A DNA stretch of 64,000 bases from Cornus controversa (lineage: Eukaryota > Streptophyta > Magnoliopsida > Cornales > Cornaceae): positions 82,425,033 through 82,489,032 of the forward strand of contig CM048845.1 of the NCBI GenBank assembly GCA_026545225.1, given 5' to 3'. Position 1 is the stretch's first letter. Each line of letters starts with the position of its first letter. This document shows, piece by piece, positions 5,160 through 53,430 of this stretch. The position numbers were made by a program, and so were the translations under genes. Below the pieces are notes generated by a model that did no database searches, was not told the origin of the DNA, and saw only the letters and a list, made by a program, of their open reading frames with translations.

Positions 5160-6450
5160 AATATTTTCAGGATTTCAGGTGGTTAAGGGTAATTCTAATT
5201 AATAATGGTGCAATCAGGCTACAGATGGTGTTAGGCCTATTCACATTGAAGATTGGGCCAATTTAGGCCTAAAAAGTCTTGGATCCATTTTGGTATTCAG
5301 ATCATATCTCCGTACACGATTGTCAAAACGACCCAAACTTCTCATGAGTTGAAGGAAATTCAATTCTGCACAATTTCATATTTCACGAAAATTTTCTAAA
5401 ACGGACGTTTTCATCAACTTTCTGCCCTATTTGCGCAGCTGCCACTTTTTGGGCGCAAATGCCACTTTGTGAGGAGCAAGTGCCATTTTCTTATGCGCAC
5501 TTGCCACTTTGGGAATGCCAGGTGTCCCATAGGTTTGTTTTCGCAAAGTAAAAATGATGAAAGGAGGAAAAACTAGGGTATGCTGGAAGGGGAAGCAGAG
5601 AGAGATATATAGAGGCGATTCGTGACGATACGGGCAAGACGATGGCGACTTCATCATCGTTCAAACCTGGACCTCGATCATGAGCGGCTAAACACCATTT
5701 TGGGAAAGTGATGTAACCCTAACCTATCTTTCAATGTTTTAGTTTGTATATTAATTTGTGAATTATTTATTTTGTGCATTAATTGTATAACTAAGACATA
5801 AACAATAGCTGTGCTGTTAGTTTTAATTTGAATGAATTTATTGCATATTTAATTTTGTTCTTGTAGAATGAATGCAAGTTTGCAGTGATTAGGGTTTAGT
5901 CTTTTCAACTTCTGTGATTTTATTAAGACAGGTTATACAATAGTTTTCACATATCATTCAATTTAGAGTTTTTATAATTCGTACTAAGCGAAGATGGGTT
6001 ATCATATCATTAGTTAATCAGATGTATAGGTCATGCTAAGCGAAGACGAGTTATGCTTAATTATATGTTGAATGAATTCTCTTGATAGAACTGAATTTGG
6101 CTTGTAGCCATTCTTTTCTGAATGCATAAATTAAACGTCCCAAATTAGTACAATTGTCATTGTCAGAAGGTTAGTGGTGAAGTCAATTCCCAGGACCCTC
6201 TATCTCCAGTATCCACCATTTATTTATGTTATTTAATTTCATCAACTTAATTTAAAAATAAAACAAATTCTCTTTCAATTAAATTAGACAAGATCTTGAT
6301 AGCTTAACAATGAAACCAATGCAGTTTCTGTGGATTCGACCCCTACTCACCACTTTACTAATTTTAGTAGAGTATTTGTAGAGTTTTATAAATTCTTTTT
6401 TGTCGAGGTGTAAAACAACGGCGACACTATTACATATTATTTTATCACGT
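5160..6450 (+). mobile_element. LTR-like fragment, probably Ty3/gypsy
   Basis: The stretch has the texture of a plant gypsy LTR: a GC-richer left part with repeated GCCACTTT/GCGCAAATG motifs (5,430-5,520), an AT-rich centre, and a right part near 6,328-6,425 containing CTGTGGATTCGACCCC and a GTCGAGGTGTAAAAC tail. I recall these from the 3' ends of several plant gypsy LTRs. Two near-copies of an AAGCGAAGA box occur around 5,988 and 6,038. Neither clear TG...CA termini nor a target-site duplication could be fixed, so the boundaries and the family are tentative. Confidence 0.35.
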
Positions 6451-6691
6451 TTTGCACATCGAACAGTTAGTAAGAGTTTTGAAATTTGCAGTGCACCCTT
6501 ATATATGTCAAATTATAGTTTAGATATTGATAGCGAAACCTTTTTTTTTCAATAAATTATATGAGCTAACTTTATTACTTAAAGTTGGAACTTTTGAGAA
6601 CTCTAATTTACTCTTTTGAGTTAATTGCTAAAAATAACGTTTGAACTATAAAAAGTTGCATCATCTCTTGTACATGAAGTAAGAACTAATA

Positions 6692-8032
6692 GGATAAATA
6701 TCATTGATAACTCTTGAGATTTGGACTTATTTCACATAGAAAGAAATTTTATTTATAACTATCATATAAACCCAAATGATATTTTCATCCCTAACGGTGT
6801 TAAAAAATGTGTGAAATGTCATATATGCCCTCCACTTATTTAATGCAATTTAATAAAAAAAATTAAAAAAATGTCAAAAGACAAAACTATCCCTAAATTC
6901 TCTCTCTCCAACCATTAACTCCATTGATTTTCTCTCTCATCACCCTCTCGCTCAATCATCTTTTCCCAACCCACCTTGTATATAACAAATCAACCACACC
7001 ACTCACATTCCATAGCTCAGACCCTAATAACAAACTAGAGAGCTAGATTTTCGACGGAGAACCAAATTTTTGACAAAAATGTTGGATTGATTGCGAGTGT
7101 TCCATCCACGGTGGTTTTGGTAGTGGCGGTGTTAACAATGGGCGGGATAACAAACCAGAGAGCCAAAGGGGCTAAGACAGTGGTGATATTGATGATTAGC
7201 GTTAATAGATCAGTAATAGAGGATTGATTGATGTACATTTGAATTTTGATTGGGGCTTGTGGTGGCTTGCAGTGGTTTTGTTTGATTAGAGGAGTTGTGT
7301 ACGGTGGTTGTTGGTTTGGGATTTGGGTTGCAAATGGGCCTTCGAGGTTTGTCGTGATGTTGGCAGCAACGATGGTGGTTTTGGCACCGATGGGTGTTCG
7401 GATTTTGTAATTTGGGTTTTGAGATTGGTTGTGTGGTGGCAGTTGGCTTGGATTAGGTTATGATTAGAGTTCGACAATGGTGGTGGTGGTGGTTTTGCCG
7501 CCTGTGGTGGTAGTGGTGGTGGTGGTTATGTGGACAGTGGTGGTGGTGGTGGTTTTGCCATTTGTGGTGGTGGTGGTTCTGTGGAATTGTGCGTGAAAAG
7601 AGATGAGCAATAAGTATGTATGTATGTATGTATGTATATAATATCTATAATAATACAAATATAAAAATTTATGGATATAAATATATACGCTAAGAAAATA
7701 CAAACATAACAAGAATAAAATATAGAGTACATATATATGAAAATATATATAAAAAACTAACAATAATATAAATATATATAATAATATATAAATATACATT
7801 AAAACGTTTAAGGGTATCATTTGTAAAGAGTAAGTAAAAGGATAGTTAGATAATTTACTACTTAATGTAAAAAGTCAAATGGTATCAATGTTTTTTTATA
7901 GTGTTAGACTTGCCTTTTTGGGGTCATTTTAACATACAGTGCAAAACGTTTAGATTTCTACTATCACTTTAAGTAAAATTCTCTCCGTGTGAAATAATTT
8001 CAAACCACAGGGAGTATCAGTGATATTTACCC
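6692..8032. mobile_element. Mutator-like TIR element with 9-bp target duplication
   Basis: The left end GGATAAATATCATTGATAAC is mirrored by the right end, whose reverse complement begins GGGTAAATATCACTGATACT. The match continues, with gaps, for about 45 bp through a TTTCACA box. Flanking 9-mers GAACTAATA (6,683-6,691) and TAACTAATA (8,033-8,041) match at 8 of 9 positions, the length expected for Mutator-like insertions. The 1.34-kb interior has no transposase. It holds a CT-rich part (6,900-6,950), a GGT/GTGGTG expansion (7,470-7,580), a GTAT run near 7,620 and AT-rich sequence. Open frames here are artefacts of the simple repeats. Confidence 0.65.
7470..7636. repeat. GGT-rich and GTAT simple repeats inside the TIR element
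   Basis: Degenerate (GGT)n runs, broken up by TTTTGCC, lie at 7,478-7,580, and a (GTAT)n run follows at about 7,617-7,636. They generate long but meaningless His/Pro/Thr-rich open frames on both strands. Confidence 0.7.
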
Positions 8033-11903: not shown

Positions 11904-12525
<622 letters not shown>

Positions 12526-12672: not shown

Positions 12673-13858
12673 TTACTGAGGGCTTGGAATATGACTCCTT
12701 GGTAGAGAAGCACTATCTTCTTCACATATAAATATTATTGGAGTATTAGGTAAGAACTCATTTTGGTCCATTGTAGTGTCTTTTCTAAGGTGCTGCCTTT
12801 TGACAATGTTAGAGAAACTCTTCAACAGTTGAGGATCACTTAAAGGCTCAGTTATCTCCTTTGGTATAAATAAATAGGCCATGTCAGAAGCTTCACCAGT
12901 TATGTTGTTTAGAATGAAGGAGGCAGGACCAAAGAGAAAGAAGGAATAGTTTAAAATTGTTTTGGCTTTTATACCTTGAGGCATATTTACTTTTCTCTGA
13001 TACAAGTTGAATAACCACAGGGAGAGAGAAGGATTAAACACGATTAATTTTACTTGATGTAGAGATATCATATGATGGTGTGCTTGTGAAATTCAAATAG
13101 AAGTAAGTTGAAGTGTAGAACATTGCCTTCCTGTAGAGATATCTGTATCTTGTGCAGTGTCATCATTTCTTATGAAACTGAGATTTAAGTTGAAGTGTAG
13201 AACATTGCCTTCCCCTTTTAGTCACACACACACACATGTATAAATATGATCGAGACTCCTTGGAATTACACTTATTTTAGTAATTAGAGCTACTTTCCAC
13301 AATGCTTACTTGTACTATGTGGAGCTAGCAACATGAATCCCTTTCCAGCACTTTAAACGCCACTTGTATTATTGAAGAGTGGATGTCATATTTGTTCTTG
13401 TTAATTCTATTATTTTGTTTCAGCCTCTGTCTTCTTAGTATAATTAATTTAGCTCATTTTCCTCATGAAGATCGTCGTTGACTTTCTTCGAACTTGAGCA
13501 ATTTCTTAAGTGGTCCTTAATGTATCACTCAATGGGCGTCTCTAAGTCCACATTCTAAGCATCTTTGATTAACAGAGACCAAACTGGAATAATAGCCTTT
13601 TTTAGTGGGTATCTCCAAGGGTTTGTCAAATGTTTTGTTCATAACTTCATTTACCTTCTTTTTCAATATTTTATCCATTGCTTGATCCATTGGTAAAAGC
13701 ATAGGGTCCCCAAAAGAAAAAGTACAAGTCTACGAACAATTGCTTTTTGAACTTAAATGTCAAATATTATAATTGTACTTAGTTTAGCTACTTGATGCCT
13801 GTGTTGGTGGAACCATAATTGGACGATTGCCTCTGTATTCTCATTTTTGAATTTGCTT
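12673..13858. other. Unassigned interval between purine-rich repeats
   Basis: A 132-codon frame on the minus strand (13,071-12,673) has no family I recognise and no typical start context. A 30-bp box (AAGTTGAAGTGTAGAACAT and following bases) is present twice, near 13,104 and 13,190. Both flanks of the 12.5-15.1 kb segment carry the same GTGCACGAAGT purine unit, so this interval may be part of one composite element. Confidence 0.25.
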
Positions 13859-14200
13859 AGATTTGCTACTCTCTTCTGGCCATTAATTAGTGTTGGTCTA
13901 CATTAATTGAGGTTGTTGGGAGGGGGCAACAAGTACATGCTCAATGCATTATTTGCTTAAAAGTGACCGCCTTCAGACTTGAACTTGCTATCTCTTAGTT
14001 AACAACCCAAAAATTTACCACTATATAAGCTGAGTTTTTACAGTTGTGCTAACGCCCCCTAAAATAGACTCATAAGGAATAATATTATTCAAAGAAATAA
14101 GAAGTTGTGTTAAGCAAAGTACTCTAACTAACCAATTCTCTTAAACATATTAATATTTATATCCATATTAATATAAATATCTATAGTTCTATATATATAT
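13859..14200. repeat. 342-bp tandem repeat, copy 1
   Basis: This copy starts AGATTTGCTACTCTCTTCTG and includes the boxes GGCAACAAGTACATGCT, AACAACCCAAAAATTTACC and GTGCTAACGCCCCC. An almost identical unit follows head to tail. On the minus strand the box GCAAGTTCAAGTCT resembles a pol III B box, so the unit may derive from a tRNA-type SINE; that is only a suggestion. Confidence 0.85.
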
Positions 14201-14545
14201 AGATTTGCTACTCTCTTCTGGCCATTAATTAGTGTTGGTCTACATTAATTGAGGTTGTTGGGAAGGGGCAACAAGTACATGCTTAATGCATTATTTGCTT
14301 AAAAGTGACCACCTTCAGACTTGAACTTGCTTTCTCTTAGTTAACAACCCAAAAATTTACCACTATACAAGCTGAGTTTTTACAGTTGTGCTAACGCCCC
14401 CTAAAATAGACTCATAAGGACTAATATTATTTAAAGAAATAAGAAGTTGTGTTAAGCAAAGTACTCTAACTAACCAATTCTCTTAAACATATTAATATTT
14501 ATATCCATATTAATATATATATCTATAATTCTATATATCTATATA
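14201..14545. repeat. 342-bp tandem repeat, copy 2
   Basis: This is the second head-to-tail copy, with the same box order and only a handful of base differences from copy 1. It ends in a longer (TA)n run (about 14,540-14,560). High identity means a recent local duplication. Confidence 0.85.
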
Positions 14546-25862: not shown

Positions 25863-28817
25863 TCAAAAACGCTTTAACCTCTCTCTAAGCTCACCAGGGT
25901 AAATTAATACAGAATCTACACATAGACCACCTTTGGTGTGGGTACAATCTATCTGGGTCATAGAAAATTTAACTTTTGTTGATGCACTGGAATCCTCGAC
26001 AACAAAATCCCCGACATGATAGTGAATCCATTGTCCAGGTTCATCCAAGAAACACTGAGAAATGGCATGCTGACCATCTGAAGTTGAAAGCTGGAATCGC
26101 ACTGGTTTTATATTCCAACCATGAACATGCTCGGAGTTACAGACGCGGCGACCAAACCTCTTAGAGGCCCGTCCTAATTGCAGCCTGAAGAATAGGCTAT
26201 AGGTCCCTGCTGGGAATGGGAACTCGACCTCTCCGTCAACTTCAAGCCACCAGATTTGCCGGAGATAAGCAACTGTGCAGAATCTACACGCAATAGAAGT
26301 CCAGATCAATTCAGTTTATCACACTACGTTTCAAGAAATAAAGTATCTTGTTACAGTAATACCATGCCAACTAAAGAACCGAACAAGATAGTGCAAGTCA
26401 ATCGATTTTGAAATACTTGAACACCATGAAGAGCAGATTTTCAAGACAACCAAGAACCTTTTGAGTTTCTTCCAATACATTCTCATTGGAAACAATCATT
26501 TTCAAGACAACCTAGAACCTTGTGGTTAAATACAGGCTCATGCATCTAAATTCAGGAAAAGGACTTTAAAACTAGCATATTATAGCTTTTGCACAGATCG
26601 AGTGAAAGATGCCTTGACTCAGGACAATCGATTCTAGCAGGGGCTTAATGTTTCACCTAAAATAAAGAAAAACTAATAAACAATTCATCCTTTTCCAATA
26701 TTTTCCGACCTTCTGAGGCAGCATCCACCATATACCCATTTGGGTACTGCCCTGGATAGTGTCTAAGAATGGATTTGATGTGCAAATAAAGGAGTTGCTA
26801 GTCTTCCATAGTGTTCAACTCTGAATAATTCATTGAGTTATGAATTAAATCACAATATAAAAAGAAAATACCAAAAAGAAAAGAAGAGAATTTAGTCAGC
26901 TTAATTTAGCTTCAACCATCCAATTTAAGCACTTTTTCCCTACCCTCAATCTCATGGAATTTGCCATCATCCATAAATTCAACTGAAAGCAAAAGTTGAA
27001 ATCCTCAACTCGAGCTGAGCCTCCAAATAGGATCTAATGCATGGTGGGTCCCAGTGGTTTTTCTTTATGCTAACATGACTGGTCTTATGAAAAACTCAAC
27101 AAAGACTGCAAGTTGACTGTGTGTACTAACAGGGGATTCTACTTATTGAGTCATTGAACACACCCATAACTTGTCTGATTCAAGTTTCCCAAGAAATCTC
27201 TATCGAAAGGCCCATGGTAATTTCCTTGCATTTTTTCCCCATAACTACCAAGGATACCAGATACCACTAAATGTTTACTGAGTTCCCTCTCTCTCTAACA
27301 TAATAACAAGAAGCAATATTAATAACACAACATAACAATAATGATGATGATTTACTCTAGCTTTTATATATGCACAAAACAAATTTTGAAAGAGAAGGGA
27401 TGGTTTGCTTTAATGAATAGCAAAGCTCAGTTTCTTAAGCCGCACCTAGTAGCCTGGTATTGTGCCCGAAAACAGAATGTAATTCCTGATATATAGATTC
27501 AAGTATATTTGATATGCACAGCGAGCTAGGAATCAAGGTACGGCTTCCAACTCCCAACACAATAAAAAATATCTAAAACAGAAGGGTTTGCTCAAAACCA
27601 AATTTGACATACAAAAAACAGCGAAAATAATCAAGATTGCCCTTAATCTAATAGGTAGTACTTTCATGGGAAAAATTAATAGATTGTTATACATGAAAAA
27701 TAACTACATATCTAGTAAGTTGTTCATAGAGAAGTTAATACAGTTGACAGTAATTGGGTAAACACAACTACAGAATCACAAATCAGATAAAATTGACAAA
27801 ATAAAAGGCAAAGAACCTACTTTTGGAGGATTTCAACGAGGAAATGCTCCGAACAGTTGGATTTTATCAGCCAATCTAAAAACACAACTCTCTGTTCTCA
27901 AGTAATCCAATAAGAAAAACAAGAGAACAATATTTCCAAATCCTCACCTCGATTCCGCGGTTGGAATCCGATTCCAGTATCTCCGATCGTCGATGCCCGT
28001 GATCCTCAACCCTTCTGAGGAAATTGACAAACAAGCCTTTCCGGTTATTTTATCCAGCCAAGCTTTCTGCACAAAACCCACATCAACAACAATCCTATCA
28101 ACAAAGCTGAATAATCCAAATCACAAGGCCTTGCCCATTTCAACACAAAACAGAAACTATTTTTCAAGATATATTTTTCAGAAGCTATACATTTAAAAAC
28201 AATCTTTCCTGTACTCTTATCCAACCGAACTTTCTGCACAAAACCCAAATCAACAACATTCCTACTAAAAAGCCTTAACAATTTAAATCACAAGGCCTTT
28301 TCCATTTCACACAAAACAGAATCTACCTATGTGTTCAAAAACTATTTTTCAAACCCATTTTCAATTACATTGCTAAACGTGTTTTTTCACAAAAGTTTCG
28401 TTCTTTTTCGTTTTATATATATTTTTTCTACAGAAACAAACAGACCCTTGTATGTTTTCTATAGAAACAAACAGATTATATGAGAGAAAACCAAACCTTT
28501 GTGCCTCCATCAAATGAATTGGGCTGACAGAGCCTAGCGTATATGTCTTTCTTACACAATTCCAATGGAAATTCATCAAACACTCTCTCAATAACAGAAC
28601 CATAATTTGGAGGCAATTTGGGTTTCCACACAAAATCTGCTGAAGAAGCGCCACGAAACGCTCGATTAAGCCCCGCAAGTCTACAAATCTCCGGTGCGTC
28701 TAAATACACCAGGACCGAGGCCACACAACCCTCCGGCAAATCGCCGAGAGTCGGCCCCGTTGACGGAGGTGTAGAGATATTGGTGTCTGTCAGAAGTAAA
28801 GAAAAACCAGAACCCAT
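25863..28817 (-). CDS. PP2-A13: F-box protein PP2-A13-like
   Basis: Three minus-strand exons, 28,817-28,497, 28,066-27,948 and 26,283-25,863, total 861 nt and encode 286 residues in one frame. This is close to the ~290 of the Arabidopsis PP2-A13 family. Residues about 25-72 form the F-box (GDLPEGCVASVLVYLDAPEI, then GLNRAF and ADFVW), which in this family binds SKP1/ASK in SCF ubiquitin ligases. The rest is the phloem-protein-2 lectin-like domain: KAWLDKITGKACLSISSEGL, ITGIDDRRYWNRIPT, IWWLEVDGEVEFPFPAGTYS, HVHGWNIKPVRFQLSTSDGQ, FSMTQIDCTHTKGGLCVDSV. Splice phases (0, then 2) are consistent and all borders are GT-AG. No stop or frameshift is seen, so the gene looks functional. Substrate specificity cannot be read from sequence. 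Intron 1 carries a diverged duplicate of the exon 2 acceptor region, and intron 2 is 1.66 kb. Confidence 0.95.
26284..27947 (-). other. Intron 2 of the PP2-A13-like gene
   Basis: 1.66 kb of ordinary AT-rich intron, with donor GTGAGG at 27,947-27,942 and acceptor TGTAG ending at 26,284. A CATTTTCAAGACAACC-like box occurs twice near 26,437 and 26,498. No gene on either strand was recognised. Confidence 0.6.
28031..28168 (-). repeat. Functional copy of a ~140-bp tandem duplication spanning the exon 2 acceptor
   Basis: This copy holds the true exon 2 start (AG ending at 28,067, exon from 28,066). It shares box order with the copy at 28,198-28,352: CTTTCTGCACAAAACCC, ATCAACAACA, CAAATCACAAGGCCTT, CACAAAACAGAA and ACTATTTTTCAA. 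Confidence 0.8.
28198..28352 (-). repeat. Diverged upstream copy with a decoy splice acceptor and partial exon 2
   Basis: On the minus strand this copy reads TTTTGTGCAG followed by codons KVRLDKSTGKIVF, which parallels the true exon 2 start KAWLDKITGKACL. The duplicate soon runs into intron-like sequence without the DDRRYW part, so splicing to it would not give a PP2 domain. It lies within intron 1 between exon 1 and the real exon 2. Confidence 0.8.
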
Positions 28818-29080
28818 GAAGGTGTTGATTCGATTGAACCAAGAAAGCCCTAAAATCCAGAATCTGATGGGTTCAGACTTGAGAGGGAAAAGGTAGATGG
28901 GGGTGGGTAGAGAGAGAGAGAGTGGAGGAGGAAACGAGATGGTGATTGGTGAGACCCCTCCAGCTGGTTTTTGTACACGGACGCATACACATTCGACTGT
29001 CCTTGTTTTTATTCTGAGAGAGAGAGAGAGGGAGAGAGTCTGAGAAGAGTTGTTGGATTTGTGTGGAAATCAAAGATTAT
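28818..29080 (-). promoter_or_regulatory. Leader and promoter-proximal region of the PP2-A13-like gene
   Basis: CT-rich sequence on the minus strand (GA runs at about 28,909-28,922 and 29,017-29,038 as read on plus), typical of plant leaders, lies directly upstream of the start codon at 28,817. No TATA box can be assigned with confidence. Confidence 0.4.
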
Positions 29081-39800: not shown

Positions 39801-40719
39801 AGGTTAAATTATATTGACCTCCCCTAAGGTTCAATTAATATGCACTGACCTCTCCTCTTGTTTGTCATATTACACTAACCTCCCTTGAGATTTGAATATG
39901 AGATACTACAAACCTTCCTTCCGTTAGTGGTCAACACAGTCAATGACAAAAAATTATGATGTCAGCAATTTGTATATTTTAAATTCCAGTTCTACCCTTG
40001 AATGTCACGACCCGATTTCTGATGCCTAGAGACCGGGGGTGATTAAGTAATTACCCACATTCCGAATTGAATTTATCCCTTGTAATATCATGTTTTGATA
40101 TCCTAGCTTATCTCGTAATCATCTCACATTATCATCGCGGAATACTCATCATATACACACCATCATATATGCACAACTCCCAAATGTTCAACAGTGCATA
40201 ATAAGCCTGCATTCAGGTTTCGGTCAGCTGATGGGTGTCCCACTAGTCGGCTGAAACCTGGGCAATCCATCGACTGGCTATCCTTTAGCTTCGGTCGGTT
40301 GGAAAGTTGTTTCAGCCGATCGAAACAGGTACCTGCAGAGCCTACAGATGCAAATGTTCGGTATCTCACCATTTCGATCGGTTGAAAGATGTTTTAGCTG
40401 GCTAAAACTCTCCAGACCCTGTTTCGTACTGTTTTCAAGCTTCAACATACCATCCACAAGGTTCATAACTCAAATAAATCATTCTATGTATGAAAAATCA
40501 TGGAGAGAGGACTCCTCACATATACAACACTTAGCACACTGCATGCTTTCTATACTCAACCATTCTTCATTCACCAACATGTATAATTTGAACATTAATA
40601 ACAATATGAATCATCATTTGAAACATTAAGCATTTGCCATGTTCAAAACTTACATAAAGAGTGTGAAATCATCACACACAACTATAACATGTTCTTGGAA
40701 TGTCACTACAAAAAAAAAG

Positions 40720-41095
40720 ACTTTCTATGGTGGGCAAAAAGGACTTTTATCACGGGTTTGGCCCGTCGTGGTATCTGGTGTCATAGTTGCCAATAGACTT
40801 TTCTACCACGGGCTTAGCTCGTGGTAAAATACAGAATTTCTACCACGGGTTTATCCCATGGTTAAAAGTCCATATCCTACCACGGGCTAAGCCCATGGTA
40901 GAAAGTTACTATTCTACCACGGGTAAAAAGGGCTTTTACCACGGGTTTGACCCGTCGTGGTATCCCGTGTCGTAGTTGCCAATAAACTTTCTGCCACGGA
41001 TTTGGCCTATGGTTGAAATTCTATATTCTACCACAGGCTGAGCCCGTGCTGGAAAGTCTATATTTTACCATGGGCTTAGGCCGTGGTAGAAAGTT
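40720..41095. repeat. Left subterminal repeat array of the CACTA element
   Basis: About a dozen half-sites of the type CACGGGYTTRGCCCGTGGTA, in both orientations, alternate with TCTACC/AGAAAGT spacers. Many adjacent half-sites are palindromic and could fold into hairpins. Confidence 0.9.
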
Positions 41096-41099
41096 TATT

Positions 41100-42933
41100 A
41101 ATTTTTTTAAAAAATTATATGCCTGGATGGTTCCTTAACACAAAAACCTGTGTACAACAAAGATCACCCATCTTTAATTCCACCAATACACAACTAGACA
41201 ATACCCAAAGTCATATATATTCATACCAAGCCTTGCTAACATCATTAAGATGTCCATAATAGTTTCAAAGCACTTGACAGCAGATTTTTATCAAAGTACG
41301 ATAGATATGTGTTGAAATAAATAAGCCTTTGAACAAAAACTTGAACATAGTGACAGCTAACTTAAGAGTGACAGCAGTTATAACGTGGTTATATATAAAA
41401 TATAAAAAACATAATCTCAACATGATCTAATATGCATGCTAAAAAATATATATATTTAAAATAATTCTGAAATGAAGTCAACAAAATCTGAACATAACTT
41501 TATCCTTATATGATATTAAACATGGCAGAACAGTCATTTGAATCACTTAAGTACTACAGGCAGCCCAATCAAATTCTAAAACTAGTAACAAGTGACAAAG
41601 TCAGATTTAAAGACTCAAAATTAATTCAATTTGCATTGTTGCTTAACCAGAGTATATGCATACATGAGGGTATTAAACAATTCTGCTTAATCTAATTTAA
41701 AGAACCAAATTCAATTAAAACTAAAGGTTGACGGACCATATGAGCAGTGAGGAACAGACCAAAAATGGGAATCAATGAGGGGAAAATAACTTGTGGAATA
41801 TCAAGAATAACAACCAATGTTGAACAGCTGCAAACAACAAATACAATTTACACGAATAGATCTTCAAAGAGAACAGAAAAAGAAAAATAGACTTGAATTT
41901 CTACATCCAACATGTACAAACCTGAAAAGCAACAATAATTGCATGTACAATATAATAGATCCACCATATACTTCAAGAACAGTATATAGTACTTCACTAA
42001 AATTAACTCCTAAGCCTATTCAAATTAACTGCATTTGCTAAATATACATAATATGAAGTTACCAAAAAAAATAGCCATAATGTCCAAAAGTTAGTCACTA
42101 TCCAGTGTGTCACTGTCTAAAATATCTGATCAGTCTTCAAAAAGATATATGTCCAAAAGTTGGCTAAAATAAACCTGCATTATAAAACATTCTCAATCAA
42201 AATCAATACTCCATATTTAAACAAATGGTTTAAGAGTAGTTCATGTCATGTAATATATGTATATTATATTTAATTTCAATTTAGTAAAAAAAATTAGTTT
42301 AGAAATATTAAGTTGAAAGCCCAAATTTGTTATATATTTTGATCTTCAAATGGGTGTACATTGCTTGTCCAAGTCCAACTTGGATCTGTTATGCAGGCCT
42401 ATGAACAAAACCCAATGCTTCAGCTGGCCATTATTGCTCATAGACCCTTACAGAGAGAGTGAGAGATGGAAAAATAAGAACAAAGATGTAGAAGATTGGT
42501 GCTAGTCCCATGTCCATTCCAAGACCACATAAACTCAATGCTTCAACTGGCCTCAATCCTTCACTCCAGAGGTTTCTCTATAACAAAAGCTCACACCCAA
42601 TTCAACCTGTTCTAATTTTGTCAATCTTACATCAAAAGTCAGCTCACATTATAGAATAAAAATAGCTCATATAGCATGGTACAACACCTCTTTAACCATT
42701 TGGATCAAAGGACCTTTCCATGGTTTTGGATAACTATAAATATCAGTTATTTGAGCACAGAATGGTCCAAGTTAAGAGATAATTTTTGCAAGGTCAATTA
42801 GCAACTCAAAAGCTCACTTCTAATCAACAAAGCTTCAGTATTTCATAATTTGTTATCAAACTTTTGTGGTCTAAAAAATCACGTTATAATTCAGTACTCA
42901 CTTTAGGTCAAACACAAGTTACAATACAAACCA

Positions 42934-42984
<51 letters not shown>

Positions 42985-44340
42985 AGTTACATTCCTCATC
43001 ATATCAGATTTTTTTTTTCTTTCTTAAACATTCAGACCTTCCAAACTTAGCCTCCAACATAGTCCAATACGAAGAAAACCACTACTAGAGAAAAGTTATG
43101 TAAGCACTTTGACCCAATGACACTCCTAAACATTCCATCTTATGTCCTCTTCAGTCCAACTCTACCCACAGGCCCCAAACCCATGTGTCTCAGTCATTAT
43201 CTTAGGATTTAAAAATGTTGATGAATAGCATAAAATCAACACAACACAAACCATAACTTACAAGATGGATCATTAAGGCATACACTTCAAAACAGATTTT
43301 CTAGGTTCATCAATTTCTATATATGTTCCTCACACATGCACACACAATTTTAGCCAAGATAAATTTATTTTATGCAAACTAATATAAAACACTCAGAAGA
43401 CGAAAATGCAAACAGTAACAAAATCTCTAAAAATTTTAGGCTAGCAAACACTACATTATATGCATTAGTTTGAAAGACAGTACTTTTGTAAAACAATGAA
43501 GAGTTAAAATCTATTAGGGTAATTTGATAGATAAAAGAAATGGAATATAGTTTACAACAATTCAACCTAACGACAAAAATTTTAAAAGATAACTTCAAAA
43601 TTTGAGGTTGAATAGCAAATATAACCCCATAATTTGAAAAGATACCAAATGGGAGGACAAGGGGATGGGATTTATCCTCAATTGAGTCACAATCCTACTT
43701 TAATCTAACAACTTGAATATCAATCTAACACAAAATAAAAAGAAGAATTAGAGAAGTCACCATGAAACTTTATTAGTTTGAACATGACTAGATGACATTA
43801 TAGACTTTGAAGATATCAAGCAATATAGAAATGAAGGCAACCAAAGGAATTTGCTTGTAAAACTAGATATTCGTGTAGGGTATTGAATGTTTGCCAAGAG
43901 TAAATCAGTGATAAAGTTTTATAGGAGATATTAAAAGAATTCATCATATTCTACATGGCACTTGTCAAGAACCTCCTAAACATTAGTGTGTTTGGACCTA
44001 GTGGATTGAAAAGTAAGCCCAGGAGACAACTGAAAGATGTGAACCCAAAGGAAAAATACCCAACAATAAATTAACAATGAAAAATATAATTCAAGGAAAA
44101 ACTGGGGCTAAACTAGTAGAAGGTTATGTTGGAAATTTGGAATGCCCAGTGCCACTATGGCTTCCCATCAACGCATGCGAAACAAACAGGAACATTGTGA
44201 CATCTAGGATGTTTCTATCTCTTGTTACATGTTGATTGGCATGTAGGACACATGATAGCTTGTCATACGAATCAAACATAATTTGGATACTTAAAAAAAA
44301 ATTATACCAGGTCCAACTTTAGCTCCTTCAAGATTCATCA
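41100..44340. other. CACTA interior, left part, no transposase recognised
   Basis: AT-rich, with a (TA)n run at about 42,938-42,980. A phrase CAATGCTTCARCTGGCC occurs twice (about 42,413 and 42,537). No CACTA transposase motifs or other gene family were recognised in any frame. Confidence 0.45.
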
Positions 44341-44342
44341 AA

Positions 44343-44625
44343 ATGACATGCATAAAGTGTCCAACTTCAAAAATTAGAGCGACTTCACTTGCCAACTCAA
44401 CATCATTAACCAGGCTCTTTATGTTGGAGATTAGACTAGAAGGCAGCATACCCCTAAGCATTGAAAATTGCAAAAGTTTTCTGGTACTAAACCTTAATAG
44501 TATTAATCTTAGTGGCACCATACCCAAAAAGGTCATCAGTCTCTCTTCTCTTTCAATTTCTTTGGCAATGGGTCATAATTATTTAACTTGTTCATTACCT
44601 ACGTACATTCTCTTTCAATTTCTTT
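44343..44625 (+). pseudogene. Captured fragment of an LRR receptor-like kinase ectodomain
   Basis: The plus-strand frame contains three consecutive leucine-rich repeats: SLANSTSLTRLFMLEIRLEG, SIPLSIENCKSFLVLNLNSI and NLSGTIPKKVISLSSLSISL, followed by HNYLTCSLP. The spacing and the wording 'GSIP..IENCKSL.VLNL..NNLSGTIPK.V..LSSLSISL..SHNYLTGSLP' are those of EFR/Xa21-type (LRR-XII) receptor kinases. Only about 90 codons are present, with no signal peptide and no kinase domain. The piece sits in the interior of the CACTA element, so it is a transduplicated gene fragment. Some consensus Leu and Asn positions are substituted, suggesting no selection on the protein. Confidence 0.85.
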
Positions 44626-45065
44626 TGTGGTGCTCGGTCAAGGCAAAAACTCACCAAGTAGTAATTTTCTATAGTAACATTAAGCTAGAAAATAAACTTA
44701 TAAAGACATATGAGCAAAAAAAAAGAGGTGTGATCTCATATTCTTCTTTGACTTATGCACTAAACTATTCATTGCCAATATAGGCTCAAGTACTATTACA
44801 TTACTTTAACTTGATTCAGGATTCATTATGACCATTCTAGCAAGTGTATTTTAACAAGTATAATATGTTATTGCTATGTTGAAGCTACTGTAATCACTGC
44901 ATAAGTTTTTGACTACCTAAAGCCTAATTTCCAGTTCATTCTTGCTGTAATTTTTCTGTCAAAATACATATATAGCTGCTGAGTAAATTCTAAGTGGTTG
45001 AGTGGATTGAATACATTATTTTATGTGATTAATTGAGGGTTTTTGAGACATTCAAGTGTTTAGTT

Positions 45066-45348
45066 AGAAGCACATACACCTCTGCATGATTCTGAGCTAT
45101 TGAAGAAGTATTGTGAAGCACTAACAGATGAGAACAGAAGGCTAAAGAAGGAGCTGCATGAGCTCAAAGCATTGAAACTGACAACTCCATTTTATATGCA
45201 ACTTTCGGCTGCCACCTTTACCATGTGCCCTTCCTGTGTGAGAATTGGTGGTAGTGCCCAAACCACATCTAAAACTCCTCATTTCCTAATCATCAGAACA
45301 AGGACTAAGTTTTACAGTCCCTTTGGCCATCCATCAGTAGCTTGCTAG
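45066..45348 (+). pseudogene. Captured last-exon fragment of an HD-Zip class II transcription factor
   Basis: The plus-strand frame reads [20 protein letters not shown], a leucine zipper. It continues HELKALKL and [16 protein letters not shown], the CPSCE-type redox motif region of HD-Zip II proteins (here CPSCV), and ends with [11 protein letters not shown] and a stop at 45,346-45,348. The ending is typical of HAT22/HAT9-like factors. The homeodomain is absent, consistent with capture of the final exon and perhaps part of the preceding intron. It lies 440 bp downstream of the LRR fragment on the same strand inside the CACTA element. A chimeric transcript is possible but not shown by the sequence. 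Confidence 0.88.
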
Positions 45349-48200
45349 CCAAATTACCATGCTAGAGAACAATTTTTTTAGTTCAAGGCTTTGGTTTCCC
45401 TCTAGATTAATATTAAATTTGTAATCATAACTTCCTTTCTCTAGATCTATCTGTGTTATATATATATATATATATATGTTTGTAAATCTTTAACAATGAT
45501 CTATGAAGGGACTTATCTTTTTTTTTTTCTCTCTTTAATTTTGTAATAGTGTAAATATTATAGAAAGAAAACTATACAAGATCACTGATTGACACACCCC
45601 TTAAACATGTGTATATATGAAGCTACAAGAATCAGTCAGGAAATGGAGGAAAGGCATAGGCAAATTAGCCACCTACAATTGATGAAGGAGCTTGGAAGGT
45701 TCCATGTGGAGCCTATAGATGTAGCTGCTTAATTAGATGGAGCCTATTGAAGGAGCTTGAACTCTAATAGAGAGAAACCTAATTATGATATATAGTAGAT
45801 AACACTGAAAAGAGAGGAAGCTTTAGATTGAAGACGCTTTCCATATGCCACAAACACACAATTAGTCATTAGAAACTTCAAGTGAGGATCCTTAGAGTTG
45901 TTCAGTTGAGAGAAAAGTGAGATATAATGAAAGAGAGACAACAGTTCCATTAGAAGGTTTAGGTGAGCTTTGAGTGAGGTTTTTAGGCAGCTTAAGGTGT
46001 GCTTTTAAGACCTGAAATGACTCCAAGCATAAAGGATTGAAACATAACAATTGAGGATGCTCTACAACTCATAAAGTTGCATTTCAGACTGATATAGCCA
46101 CTTATATGAGTTTCTAAGTACTATGAATATATCATGAGTTCCTCTGAGAAAAATACATGTATGAACTTGGTTAGCATCTCAGTCCTAAGTTCTTTCACTA
46201 TTCACTCCTGATCTATTCTATATTGTTGTCAAAACTTTCAAAAATAGGTCAATCTATTCTTGTTTAATTTCTAGGTTGTTCTTTGTGTTTTATTAAATGT
46301 ATTTAAACATATTGAATATGATTGTGAAGCATTGGAATTATTGTTATAGCTACCCCTAATTCTAAATTTTTAATGTTGGTTACTGTTCAAAATATGTTGT
46401 CAAGAAGTTTAGAATATGCTATTCTGTGCTAAGAACATCTGTGATGATACTTATAGTTACAGCAAACCACATACACTTGAATACAAATGTTGTTATCTTA
46501 TTTTGGCTTAATTAAAGCTTGCACCAGCTTTTGAATAATTGAAGCTCAAATATTTTTACAGCATTTCATATTAAAAGGACTGCTCTGTTATAGTGTCTAC
46601 TGTTGGGTGATATTTTTTTTTATATAGATATTCATATTGAGAAATCTTTATTTTTTGTGTTTGGGGGAATGAGGAGCTCATGCTCATATGCTACCACAAA
46701 TTCCTTAGTTGACAATGCTGAAATTTTTTTCAAAAACTGCCAACATGTTTATAGGTGCAGTAACAAAATCAGACACAACTAAGAACAATAACATGTACAA
46801 AGCTAAGAACAAAGGCGATGTGATAAAATAGTACATGTGAGAAAATATGAAGAAATTCTTAAAAAGAATGCATTGGATGTGTGAATTCTACAAGAACCTA
46901 ATAACGAGCAATCAAAAAGCCCTTTTTGTCATTAATCTGAGACAAGGGGCATGGGTGCAATTACTAGCTTGCATCTTTACATATAAAATCAGAATTCCAA
47001 ACCCTATTTCTAAACAAACTCAAAATGTGAATGAAATGTGGGGAAAACAAATTGTACTAATAAAATATTAGACTAATTACTTGGATGCATTATTGATGAC
47101 CTAATCATGTACTAATTTTTGTATCCACAACCAATAAGCACTCAAGAAATGGCTTCATAGCATTGAGAAAAGAGGGAAGAGCAATGATGCAACATGCTTC
47201 AGCTTGTTTTCTCCCTTATTGAAATATGTATATGGATGTGTTTTAGTATCAGCACACAAACATCAAAACCAACCCAAGCTGAATCCTCGAACCTAATATA
47301 CTGTCAATATTAATGGGGAATTTGGACACTGCACTGTGATGAAACTGTTAAATAATTTATATCATTAAAAATTAAATTATTTTTTCTTACAATTGGGGGG
47401 GAAATGCTAAGATAAACCATTACATGACTTTGCAGTAAGAGAAAAAAAATTAGGAGTGCAAACAAATAAATGTAATTAAATCTAAAAATAAATGTCAATT
47501 AATTTCATGAAATATAATTACTTATACCCAAAAACTTGAATAAAAAAAAACACCCAATTTTAATAGTTATACTACCCTGTGAACCAATTTCATCTCTTAT
47601 TCTATCGACTACATTTGCTTAACCAGATGTGAAAAACTCAGTATTGCAAAAAGAAAATAAAAACCGATTCAATGAACCTTTGCTATTTAACTAAAAAAAT
47701 TTACAATCGAAAAGATTTCAAAATCCATGAAGAAGAGCAAAAACCCTAATAGCAGAGCTTTGTTAGTGACATAAATTAATCAATAGGATGAATTTGAGCA
47801 AAAACACGAATAGAGGAATCATACCAGATGAAGGAGATGAGTCAGAGACTGAGGAGGCTCAAAGCTTGCTTTGAGGTGGAGAAATTGGGGCTTCTATTGC
47901 TTCCATGGACAGAAATTTGGGATTCGGTTGACAGAGACTTTGCCTCAATCAAGCTTGTTTAGTGGTGTTTAATAGAGCTAGAGAATGACGCCAATCAAGT
48001 TAGGGTTCGGTTAAGCTTTGGTCTAGAGAGGGGTACAATGAATATGTTTGGGTTAAGGCTTCTGTATCAGACTAGGGTTATAGTCATTTTTTAGTGGAGG
48101 AAGGGGGAGAGAGAGATAGAATTAGGGTGTAATACCGTGTTTGGGTCACCGCATGAAATTTAATTTATTAAAAATAATACCGCGCAAAATTAAATTAATT
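45349..48200. other. CACTA interior, right part, no transposase recognised
   Basis: The stretch contains a (TA)n run near 45,456-45,477. A short plus frame near 45,640 (QEMEERHRQISHLQLMKELG) has no assigned family. A leader-like segment on the minus strand at about 48,130-47,820 (CT-rich, then ATGGAAGCAATAGAAGCC) could mark the 5' end of an element transcript. No transposase was found. Confidence 0.4.
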
Positions 48201-48204
48201 TTCT

Positions 48205-48470
48205 AAAAAAAATAAGACTTTCTATCATAGGCTTTGCCCGTGATAGTTATAAAAATTTTCACCACGGCCCTAGCCCATTGTAGAAAGTCACTTTCTACGG
48301 CGGCCTCGCGTAGCCCGTGCTAAAAAGTATTTTCTACGACGGGCTATCTGGGCCCGCCGTAGAAAGTTACTTTCTACCACGGGTTATGCGAGCCCACCGT
48401 AGAAAGTGAATTTCCACCACGAGCTATGCGAGCCCGCCATAAAAAGCCTGTCGTTAAAAGCTAAATTTCT
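48205..48470. repeat. Right subterminal repeat array of the CACTA element
   Basis: Copies of TTTCTACCACGGGCTATG and GCCCGCCGTAGAAAGT type repeats reach to within about 10 bp of the right terminus. The motif is related to but not identical with the left array (GCGAGCCC and CCGCCGTAG variants). Confidence 0.9.
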
Positions 48471-50194
48471 TGTAGTGTGTGAAAACAACATATCAAGGTC
48501 TATGTTTTTATACATATCAAAATGCAGTATGTCCATATCCCTAACGTGCTTAATAGTAAAAATAACTAAAAAGAGAGTTCTTGTGACTCCAAGTCCATCT
48601 CATGGTTGATCACCATCAACCACTTTCTTGCCATGTCCTGAAAATGTTAATGCAATAGGATGAGCAAGTTCAACGGCTCAAAGTAATATGTTATGCAATT
48701 CGTTCAAGTTCACATTTCATATTTTCACATAAAGGCAATTCAATATGCATAGTCTAGTTATGTGTCATGCTTCCTAGCATTCTAGTTAAAGCTATAACGT
48801 TCATTCCTATGACATATTCATCAAATACATTTGACAACCACAATAATCACAGCATGCTTCATTGCCTAATCTATCATATCTATAATATATGACATAACTG
48901 GATTCGTACACAATTCCACTCAATTCACACAGGTCACATTATTTCACATAAAACTTAACACAAAGTCACATTGCTCTTGGAATTGTATTCACACTCACAC
49001 ACACTGTCAAGATATGTACAGAAGTCCCACATCTCAAGCTCTTGGTTATTTCGAGCTATTAACCCATCCGGTTACCATCCAACTTGCACAAGGTTGAGGT
49101 CTTTCAACCCCAAGGGGATATGTTCCCCCTCTCTTTCCCATGAGTCATTTATGAGAATTCATCCCACACACACAAAATATATCACATTTTGCACATAAAT
49201 TCACACATTTTGATGCATTGCACTCAATACATGTCCTATGATCATTCTAGCATGTCATACAATAATTCATAATGACACAGTATACATTTTAATTCTAAAT
49301 TAGGATTTTCAATAATTTCATTAAAATCTTATATATGCAATACATGTCCCAATTTGCACATTCAAGCAATTCATGCATTCTACAACATCTACCAACTACT
49401 TCCAATTCAATTAAAAATACCTCATCAATTTAATCAACAATTCATCCACAAAATCTCATATCATCATATATATCTTAAATACATCAATTTTATACTAAAA
49501 ACATGAAATTCAACTTGAAATGTAAGACACAACACACACCCCTACCTCAATAACTATAGTTTCAAGTTATTCCTTACTTTCACTCAAAAATCAACTTTCT
49601 CCGAAATCGATTCTAAATGGATTAATCTCGAGCCCTTAGTGCATAGACCGTTTCTCTCTTTGGCGAACTCCAATTATGAACCTATGTCTCTCAAAATTAA
49701 TGAAGAAGGGAAGAAGAAGATGTTGCTATATATAGATATATGTATATGCTCTTCACGGATGAATAAGAATGCGAATGAGGGCTAGGTATTCTCTCTTGCT
49801 ATTTATAGAATTTTGACCTACCCTTATTTCCAAGAATGCCACTACCTTTTCACTAAATTTTCTGGGACTTAATTTTTGAGTTTTGTAACTACGATTGATA
49901 CAAAATCGACTTCGTAGAGCGTAAAATATTTTATTTAAGGTACCCTCCAAATTTGGAGTCATTTCAACACCTTCGGATTTTTTGAGCCCACGGGGCCCGC
50001 GTCCCTAGGTCAACTGGACCCGAAAAAGTCAACTTTTGTCAAACACTCCGTAAACTTTTTTTCAAACACATATACAAGTACCAAAACATGTATTTTATAT
50101 TTAAAACACATAAATAATCATTTAAAGCATTAATATGGTAATAAATGAAAATAACCGAAAACCAGACAAAAGTGGTCACAGTTCTTACATTGAA

Positions 50195-50977: not shown

Positions 50978-52671
50978 TGTCACGCCCCGATTTCCGTTCC
51001 CCAGAAACCAAGGGTGACTTGATTCTCATCCCGCCACATCATCTCATCAATCACTAATGAACTCTCCATAATCTTAATTACTGTGGAAGCTTAACTCTTT
51101 CTTGCACAAGAAGGTGCTAACTCAACCTCAACCACAACCAACCCCAAAGAGCTTCATACCAAGCTATAATAGCATAACTCCAAAGTTTCCAGAACTTGGC
51201 TCCCCGTGTGACTGGAAATTGGTGTTGAATCCCTCACCATTGGATAGAGAATTTCAAAATACTCAATTTCAAAAAAAGAATCACATGATTCGGATTTGAA
51301 ACGACCAAGTTATGCCTATTTCAATATTTTAAAAATCTGCATTAGTCGACTTATCAGTCGACTTATAGGGCATCAGTCGATTTATGAAGTGCATTAGTTG
51401 ACTAATTTGCTGCTCTAGAAAGCTCTAAAACATACTGCCAATGTTAGTCCACTTATAGAAAGCAACCAGTCGACTAATTCAACCTGAAAATCCATTTTTA
51501 CACCTTTTTGTCCAAAATTCACCCCAAGACTCACACATAACCACTTCTACAATACAAAACTAATCCAACCACATTCTAATCATCATTTAAAAGACTTTTC
51601 AACCTAATAAAAACAGAACTTCATTCAATCACATCCATAAACATATGCAATGGAATTCAACCCAACATTCTTCCATTCAAAACCCACAAATCACATATGA
51701 TCCATATATGAACATTACATTTGAAACTAAAGTACACCAACATGAATCAAATGTAAATACAAAGTTTTCAATCTTGTCCACACGCCACAAGCCGGCGTGG
51801 ACATCTATTTACATATCAAAAGGTCAACAGTCCAAAAATAGAACTCAACAAGGTTCATTGAGCTATTTATATTTCATCCTCCATTGGGGCCTTATCTGAA
51901 AAAATTATATAAATAGGGGGGTAAATATCACTGCGGCTCAGTAGGAATGATCCACTCAACTCCTCTCTAACTTAGGCGGCCATGTATGGATGCATATGAA
52001 ATCATTACAATCTATATGACAAATATCTAATTTTTTTTTTACCCTCAAAACAAACAAGTTTTGAAATCATGCGTGATGTTTTACATTTCAAGGTATACAT
52101 ATATATAAACATCAACTTAAATAAGTCACATTTCATATATATAACTCACGCCACATAAGTCCGAAAATCAATTCAACTGAGGACTTCGCTTATCACAATC
52201 CGTAGTAAGGGTCGTTTTGGGACCACATACTCTACTCACGCTTTTTGGGCTACTAACCCGACGGAAACGACACCCGCTTGGCCAAGTTTTTGGTCTTGCA
52301 CCATAGAGTTTAATACCCTTATTAATTCTCACACATGCCCCAAAAATTTCGCTTTTCACATAATGCACACTTATCAAATAAATGCACAAAATCCACACAA
52401 TGCAATGCTTTTATCAAAATAATGCATTTTTTCTTCTCATCCCAAGCTTGTCACCATGCCAATACACTCATATCATGAAAATCACCATGCTTATGCATTT
52501 TTCAAGAAAATTATATCTTTCATGCACAATTCTAAATAGAAACTCAGAATTTCCATGATTTCACCAAATGAACACAATTTTATTAAAAAACATTCCTAGT
52601 CTCAACTTCACATATGCAACATACATAAGTCCTAACTAACATTTTAGACATATCCATGTGCATAAATTCAC

Positions 52672-52710
<39 letters not shown>

Positions 52711-53430
52711 CACCAAACCCTAAACTCAAGAAATCTCAACCTATCTTTCATGTCACAATTATGTGACCTATAGAATCAAAGTAAAGATGAGTTTAGCAAC
52801 CCTACCTCAAATCCTATGCTTTGAATCCAACTTTGAGAAATCTCAGCTTTCTCAACTTCACGAAATGGAAACTTTGATCGATTCAAACCGAAGCCCTTGA
52901 TGTCCCCTACACACTTTCCTTCTTCGGGATCTTACAAATCACACCTTAAGTGACCTAAAATCTAGAGAGAAGGGAGAGAGATGAAGTAAGATAGGTAGAG
53001 AGAGAAAGAGATCTGTAAAATGAAATATTCTAGACCCCTTTTTGATATTTATCTCAACCCTAGGGGCGCAAAATGACTATTTTACCCCCGGGCCACTTAA
53101 TGTACCTCCTCGACCTCAATATTTTATCGAAAACTCCGTTGGTCTCGAAATCACTCCCTCAATACTCTAAATATTTCGTTTAATCCATTCCCCAAAATAA
53201 ATATTTTTGAGAATTTTTCGGATTCCCGGACCCACTTAAGTCGCATCCCGGGCCTCGGTTGACCAAAAAGTCAAACTTTTCCAAATCTTTTGAAAACTTA
53301 CCAAAACCTTTAAAATACTTCCCAATCATGTTCCCCGCATTCAAAACATGTTAAATATCATTTAGAATGCGTTTAAAGTAATAAATGACAAAAATTGAAA
53401 AATCGACCAAAATTGGGCACGGTCTCTACA
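50978..53430. mobile_element. Ty3/gypsy-type solo LTR 2
   Basis: The LTR begins TGTCACGCCCCGATTTCC and ends GGCACGGTCTCTACA, a length of 2,453 bp. It is flanked by perfect 5-bp direct repeats CATCA (50,973-50,977 and 53,431-53,435). Its start, overall length and end region (GGTTGACCAAAAAGTCAA, then AGTAATAAATGACAAAAA) resemble solo LTR 1, so both belong to one family or sister families. A cluster of AGTCGACT boxes lies at about 51,345-51,480, comparable to the GGTCGGTTG/CAGCCGAT cluster of LTR 1. There is a (TA)n run at about 52,677-52,704. No internal domain is present. Confidence 0.85.

Follow-up and report, generated by a model that had tools for sequence, protein, structure and literature searches.

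A probable Pack-type CACTA element carrying pieces of two host genes in Cornus controversa

The capture of host gene DNA by CACTA transposons has been described in several plants, and the closest published cases provide the frame for the locus reported here. This is a 7,774-bp CACTA element without a transposase, found in a stretch of 64,000 nt of the Cornus controversa genome (GCA_026545225.1, CM048845.1, 82,425,033-82,489,032 of the forward strand), which we call the window and to which all coordinates without a prefix refer. In the excerpted text of the reports cited in this paragraph, Pack-CACTA and other Pack-TYPE elements are described from Arabidopsis, rice and maize (PMC8903248), and the window element differs from these in carrying a 3' untranslated region (UTR) with downstream DNA and in lying within a solo long terminal repeat (LTR). 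Cactavine-5 of grapevine is likewise a CACTA element with a partial coding and 3' untranslated region that runs opposite to the transposase, but its PPR piece lies downstream of a transposase open reading frame, whereas the window element has none (PMC2528002). Tgm-Express1 of soybean, also a CACTA element (5.7 kb), holds several unrelated gene fragments with exons and introns; it sits in the intron of a gene and yields chimeric transcripts with that gene, in contrast to an element in a solo LTR (PMC1947982). In wheat such captures are common, with 140 events on chromosome 3B alone, and 46% of them were judged likely to be functional in structure, whereas two of the four copies found here have stops (PMC4290129). 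Gene pieces in CACTA elements are described in Chenopodium as well (PMC8978399). Among the titles and abstract openings listed for homeodomain-leucine zipper (HD-Zip), homeobox or leucine-rich repeat (LRR) cargo in CACTA elements, none reports the combination of HD-Zip and LRR pieces found here. CACTA gene capture, antisense cargo included, is thus already published and an ordinary process, and what is known of CACTA elements is unchanged by this locus. Its value lies in a cleanly bordered capture whose HD-Zip source is known to the base and which recurs at four or more loci, together with an arguable orientation, and it makes the idea of antisense regulation by CACTA cargo testable in Cornus controversa.

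We interpret the element as a Pack-type non-autonomous CACTA whose ends belong to one family, which entered a solo LTR as a unit and whose cargo from two host genes is passive and decaying. We put the probability of this interpretation at about 0.82.

Ends, relatives and insertion site

The element and its parts are as follows.

40704..48477, minus strand: non-autonomous CACTA element, 7,774 bp, recognized by its ends, target-site duplication (TSD), arrays and relatives, with 48477 taken as its 5' (promoter) end
40701..40703, no strand: TSD TGT, left copy
48478..48480, no strand: TSD TGT, right copy
40704..41098, no strand: left terminus and subterminal array, 13 core-motif matches
48215..48477, no strand: right terminus and subterminal array, 11 core-motif matches
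40704..43129, no strand: left-side sequence held in common, piecewise, with other loci of the CACTA family
47299..48477, minus strand: right-side sequence held in common with other loci of the CACTA family, including a leader-like stretch

The element starts with CACTACAA at 40704, ends with TTGTAGTG at 48477 and is flanked by TGT on both sides. This is the only one of the three possible CACTACAA...TTGTAGTG pairs in the window that has equal 3-bp flanks. Terminal inverted repeats are present, with the first 8 bases identical and an ungapped match at 20 of the first 32. Searched with up to three mismatches, the core motif TTTCTACCACGGGC has 27 matches in the window where 2.30 would be expected, and the two subterminal arrays account for 24 of them. 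The element therefore has the terminal inverted repeats, the 3-bp TSD and the subterminal repeats at both ends that are typical of CACTA elements, in agreement with the precise ends and subterminal arrays recorded in an earlier first-pass annotation of this DNA. Other CACTA-like 8-mers, at 12771, 22398 and 25520, form no pair with equal flanks and are ascribed to chance. An inverted-repeat scan of 43000-47000 for a nested element around the gene pieces gave 16 weak or AT-rich pairs, none of which was accepted.

Six-frame Pfam scans of the whole element, with E values up to 1, found no transposase domain, and the sole match was the leucine zipper of the HD-Zip piece; the first-pass annotation had likewise seen no transposase. 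The tnp2 domain (Transposase_21) that belongs to autonomous members of the CACTA superfamily occurs at one related locus, L037, and at many other places in the genome of 771.7 Mb and 61 contigs that we searched, where at least 150 matches exceed the cut-off (150 scored of 492 candidates). The element is probably mobilized in trans by tnp2 transposases encoded elsewhere.

A genome search with the whole element gave at least 115 matches, a lower bound like our other counts from this search, in which 40 of 1,092 candidates were scored. One complete relative, L048 (C1:56332743-56338128), is 5,386 bp long and has its own TSD (ATA/ATA). It matches the window element at the left over element positions 1-634 (634 bp, 82%) and at the right over 6596-7774 (1,179 bp, 89%); its interior differs, with one stop-to-stop frame of at least 90 aa (96 aa). 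Because this relative has both ends together with a TSD, the two ends in the window are those of one family. When genome loci were compared for the fragments, loci of this CACTA family were found both with and without gene pieces.

The insertion site is defined by two LTRs.

40003..50189, minus strand (weakly supported): solo LTR, 2,410 bp without the CACTA element that splits it, TSD TTGAA
50978..53430, minus strand: related undisturbed solo LTR, 2,453 bp, TSD CATCA

When the CACTA element is removed, the closed flanks align end to end with 50978-53430 at a global score of +43; 60 stretches taken from the window's first 40 kb gave a mean of -205 (standard deviation 27, maximum -126). The two LTRs are identical at 1,461 of 2,152 aligned positions (68%). 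We base the identification of the LTR on this alignment rather than on the TTGAA duplication, which alone is not significant: nine TGT...ACA pairs that span the element, the pair of the LTR included, have equal 5-bp flanks. Since the flanks close to one LTR, the element inserted as a unit, and it did so into a solo LTR and not into a gene. A minus reading direction of the split LTR is weakly suggested by what we take to be the LTR-end motif and by a TATA box at 49807. The second LTR conserves this box only in part and carries TATA-like sites on either strand, and the titles found in a literature search for the end motif were all off the subject.

The first-pass annotation had named ends from two different elements as a finding that would refute its own reading. 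On this alternative, the gene pieces would be host DNA trapped between them. Composite capture through neighbouring or tandem insertions is indeed a published model for Pack-CACTA (excerpts of PMC8903248 and PMC13317346). At two other genomic loci with the same HD-Zip capture, C6a and C2a (see below), the HD-Zip block starts 2 bp past a CACTA right terminus (L025 4468-4603, L027 4281-4416), which is consistent with the capture of DNA adjacent to a CACTA copy but does not prove it. For the present locus, the TGT/TGT duplication, the closure of the flanks to a single LTR and the same pair of ends in L048 make two elements extremely improbable, although the model could describe the first acquisition of the cargo.

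Captured gene pieces, their sources and their copies

Between its ends the element holds these captured and associated blocks, where antisense refers to the element's orientation as taken above.

45088..45348, plus strand: captured HD-Zip II last-exon piece, 86 codons and stop, antisense to the element
45349..45865, plus strand: captured continuation of the same HD-Zip II gene into its 3' UTR and the DNA downstream
44383..44757, plus strand: captured piece from an LRR receptor-kinase family, with LRR similarity up to 44601 and a non-LRR tail beyond it, antisense to the element
43349..44367, plus strand: block U, of which one part also lies beside the LRR piece at C2:32815580-32816613 and another part at C6:65930147-65931612
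44754..45087, plus strand: block X, contiguous with the HD-Zip piece at several loci

The HD-Zip piece can be traced to its source. Its frame matches Pfam HALZ with an E value of 3e-5 and a score of 24.5 bits, where the curated cut-off is 28.1; decisive for its identity is the comparison with a host HD-Zip II gene, in which 240 of 261 coding positions are identical. This gene (L024, C7:29614500-29619500) is apparently intact, with an N-terminal exon, a homeodomain exon and a last exon that encodes the zipper and CPSCE; the three exons are deduced from frames and splice sites, and Homeodomain and HALZ were identified by Pfam. The capture begins 25 bp inside the last exon and continues through the stop codon and the 3' UTR into the DNA beyond, and over the whole captured stretch (45088-45865) 703 of 760 aligned positions are identical to the source (C7:29617695-29618490). 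The CPSCE motif is described for class II HD-Zip proteins in the excerpted text of PMC3281058. The window piece itself retains part of the zipper and CPSCV, and it is the source gene that has the homeodomain, zipper and CPSCE of the class. The last-exon fragment previously placed at 45,066-45,348 is therefore real, with a coding piece from 45088 and 3' DNA to 45865. A 43-aa frame at about 45.6 kb, considered as a further gene piece, has no Pfam match and is 3' flanking DNA of the HD-Zip gene. Searches for relatives of the HD-Zip piece gave 9 pattern matches in viral_contigs and 35 in genome_contigs, of which none was confirmed.

The frame of the LRR piece has its matches in the Protein Data Bank (PDB) among LRR receptor kinases (best single stretch E 3e-6), where one shuffled peptide had 0 matches; Pfam gave no match to this frame alone. 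At the DNA level 44383-44601 shares 87.5-88.9% identity across some 217 bp with L031, L032 and two places in L033, all of an LRR receptor-kinase family that we take to be class LRR-XII. L031 has an open frame of 938 aa that encodes LRRs and the beginning of a kinase domain. Weaker protein similarity starts at 44304, so that the 44,343-44,625 assigned earlier to this fragment was close. The tail at 44624-44757 has a match in L032 (C2:8188500-8195000), a locus with a truncated LRR stretch. The LRR copy at C2:32816387 has tail-like sequence too, and about 290 bp of L032 are missing from both this copy and the window. Because of the truncation, the tail match and the common gap, the LRR piece probably came from a copy that had been truncated before and not from an intact receptor-kinase gene. 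The genome search for parents and borders that the first-pass annotation had proposed thus identified the gene from which the HD-Zip piece came and the limits of the capture, but for the LRR piece it led to an apparently truncated copy. Short matches to 44624-44757 occur at eight further places besides L032, and the tail may therefore be a repeat of its own. Among the loci examined, the window alone has the LRR piece and the HD-Zip coding piece together. Block U and the LRR piece occur at one locus, C2:32805500-32827000 (L046, L030, L047); about 7 kb further along, this locus has sequence that lies downstream of the HD-Zip gene and reaches past the part that was captured.

With host gene DNA inside the CACTA ends, the HD-Zip source gene (L024) and LRR kinase-family loci similar to the LRR piece (L031-L033) elsewhere in the genome, and no transposase found, the element is a non-autonomous transduplicating CACTA, as had been proposed.

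The HD-Zip capture is present at three or more further loci, C6:6368402 (C6a), C7:23492147 (C7a) and C2:61208780 (C2a), so that the coding piece occurs in at least four loci, the window included. The window, C6a, C7a and C2a have identical junctions and a common 16-nt insertion, which indicates a single capture that was then multiplied. C7a has a CACTA left end upstream. Two loci, C9:23343285 and C7:19803378, have the upstream block with roughly 40 bp of the HD-Zip exon, and five have the 3' UTR part of the HD-Zip capture with no exon (C8:18571894, C2:80513036, C7:15102821, C4:3869897 and C4:2682327). We also observed a 1.46-kb block, 45457-46915, which starts in the HD-Zip 3' UTR and has copies of 93-95% identity at L013, L015, L016, L017 and L039, the last of them near a CACTA right end.

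On the columns of the source gene, C6a has one in-frame stop and C7a three, while the window and C2a have none; C7a also has an 8-nt insertion. The ratio of nonsynonymous to synonymous change (dN/dS) between the window and the other copies is 0.73 for C2a, 1.08 for C6a and 0.90 for C7a. The sequence comparisons show the single capture, the spread of the captured DNA to four or more loci and the entry of the element into the solo LTR as a unit; we suggest in addition that the cargo decays passively.

Several observations weigh against our interpretation of the element. The HD-Zip frames of the window and C2a are still open, and dN/dS against the source gene is 0.57 for the window, 0.38 for C2a, 0.56 for C6a and 0.49 for C7a, each from fewer than 60 synonymous sites and each including the constrained branch of the source gene itself. 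Because that branch is constrained, these values fit neutral decay after capture, and they leave room for weak constraint on a copy. A full set of outer CACTA ends was not seen at C7a, C6a or C2a, and no source was traced for block X or for 45.9-47.3 kb. The orientation discussed next depends on a single transposase-bearing locus, L037. No far terminus of L037 was seen across 15.4 kb, and its frames, used as queries, left no trace of a transposase in the window or the other loci examined.

Orientation and possible transcripts

The direction of the element is suggested by a stretch close to its right end.

47824..48128, minus strand: leader-like stretch that contains ACCCTA motifs and ends in a candidate splice donor (47824), a putative first exon

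In L037 (C10:34936000-34945900) the right terminus of the family (2993) is followed by a match to the leader region (3243-3668) and then by a frame (6776-7423) that matches Transposase_21 with an E value of 2e-59 and reads inwards from this terminus. A frame at 6132-6608 has no Pfam match and looks like the part that precedes Transposase_21. Family sequence 1507-1416 follows in collinear order at 12380-12478 (99 bp, 81%), and 47824-48035 of the leader-like stretch is conserved in L037. From this order of right terminus, leader and inward Transposase_21 we infer that the element has its 5' end at the right; judged from sequence, transcription from this end would run on the minus strand, and the gene pieces would be read antisense. 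On the minus strand the leader contains three ACCCTA motifs within 300 bp, and neither strand has a denser cluster. The donor at 47824 scores 8.26 on a splice-donor matrix; across the window, each strand has sites that score at least 8 at a rate of about 0.65 per kb. We do not count pyrimidine content as evidence, since it fails to distinguish the leader.

This orientation bears on the idea, raised by the first-pass annotation, that the element could make a chimeric transcript or protein of LRR and leucine zipper. Both pieces are on the plus strand with open frames, and 22 in-frame GT-AG pairs can be formed from 9 GT and 19 AG sites, with a donor at 44728 whose score of 8.15 is close to that of the leader donor. 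Chimeric transcripts from CACTA cargo are also described in soybean Tgm-Express1, there as extra exons of the interrupted gene (excerpted text of PMC1947982). However, the promoter end points the opposite way in the one informative relative, L037, and the host site is a solo LTR of uncertain direction in which the TATA-like box at 49807 reads minus. The LRR and HD-Zip frames differ in phase, in-frame GT-AG pairs are equally common without selection, and the AGs near 45064 are preceded by pyrimidine-poor tracts (8-12 of 17). The piece encodes a truncated zipper without the homeodomain. We therefore do not favor this proposal and regard such a plus-strand product as very unlikely.

A minus-strand transcript could instead act through small RNAs that are antisense to the HD-Zip II source gene, and the same idea was raised for the PPR piece of grapevine Cactavine-5 in the available part of PMC2528002. 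The antisense position of the pieces relative to the putative 5' end, the identity of 703 of 760 positions to the source and the presence of the coding piece in at least four loci would suit such a role. Against it, 7.5% divergence from the source lowers targeting by small RNAs, and LTR and CACTA regions are usually silenced. The stops in two of the four copies show no protein role and are silent on a role of the RNA. On balance we consider such an action of an antisense transcript on the source gene unlikely. Equally doubtful, on the sequence evidence, is its extension to the whole set of copies, by which the multiplied antisense 3' ends of the HD-Zip II gene would be a source of small RNAs that tune this gene, and the open frame in the window would be incidental. 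We continue to favor passive cargo.

Other features of the window

Outside the element, the window contains a tandem duplication at 13858-14543 with a 342-bp unit that is 97% identical. Pieces of F-box-like and PP2 (phloem protein 2) genes lie on the minus strand at 25866-29069. A DUF4371 coding piece is found at 2995-3603, also on the minus strand, and is presumably a relative of a transposase.

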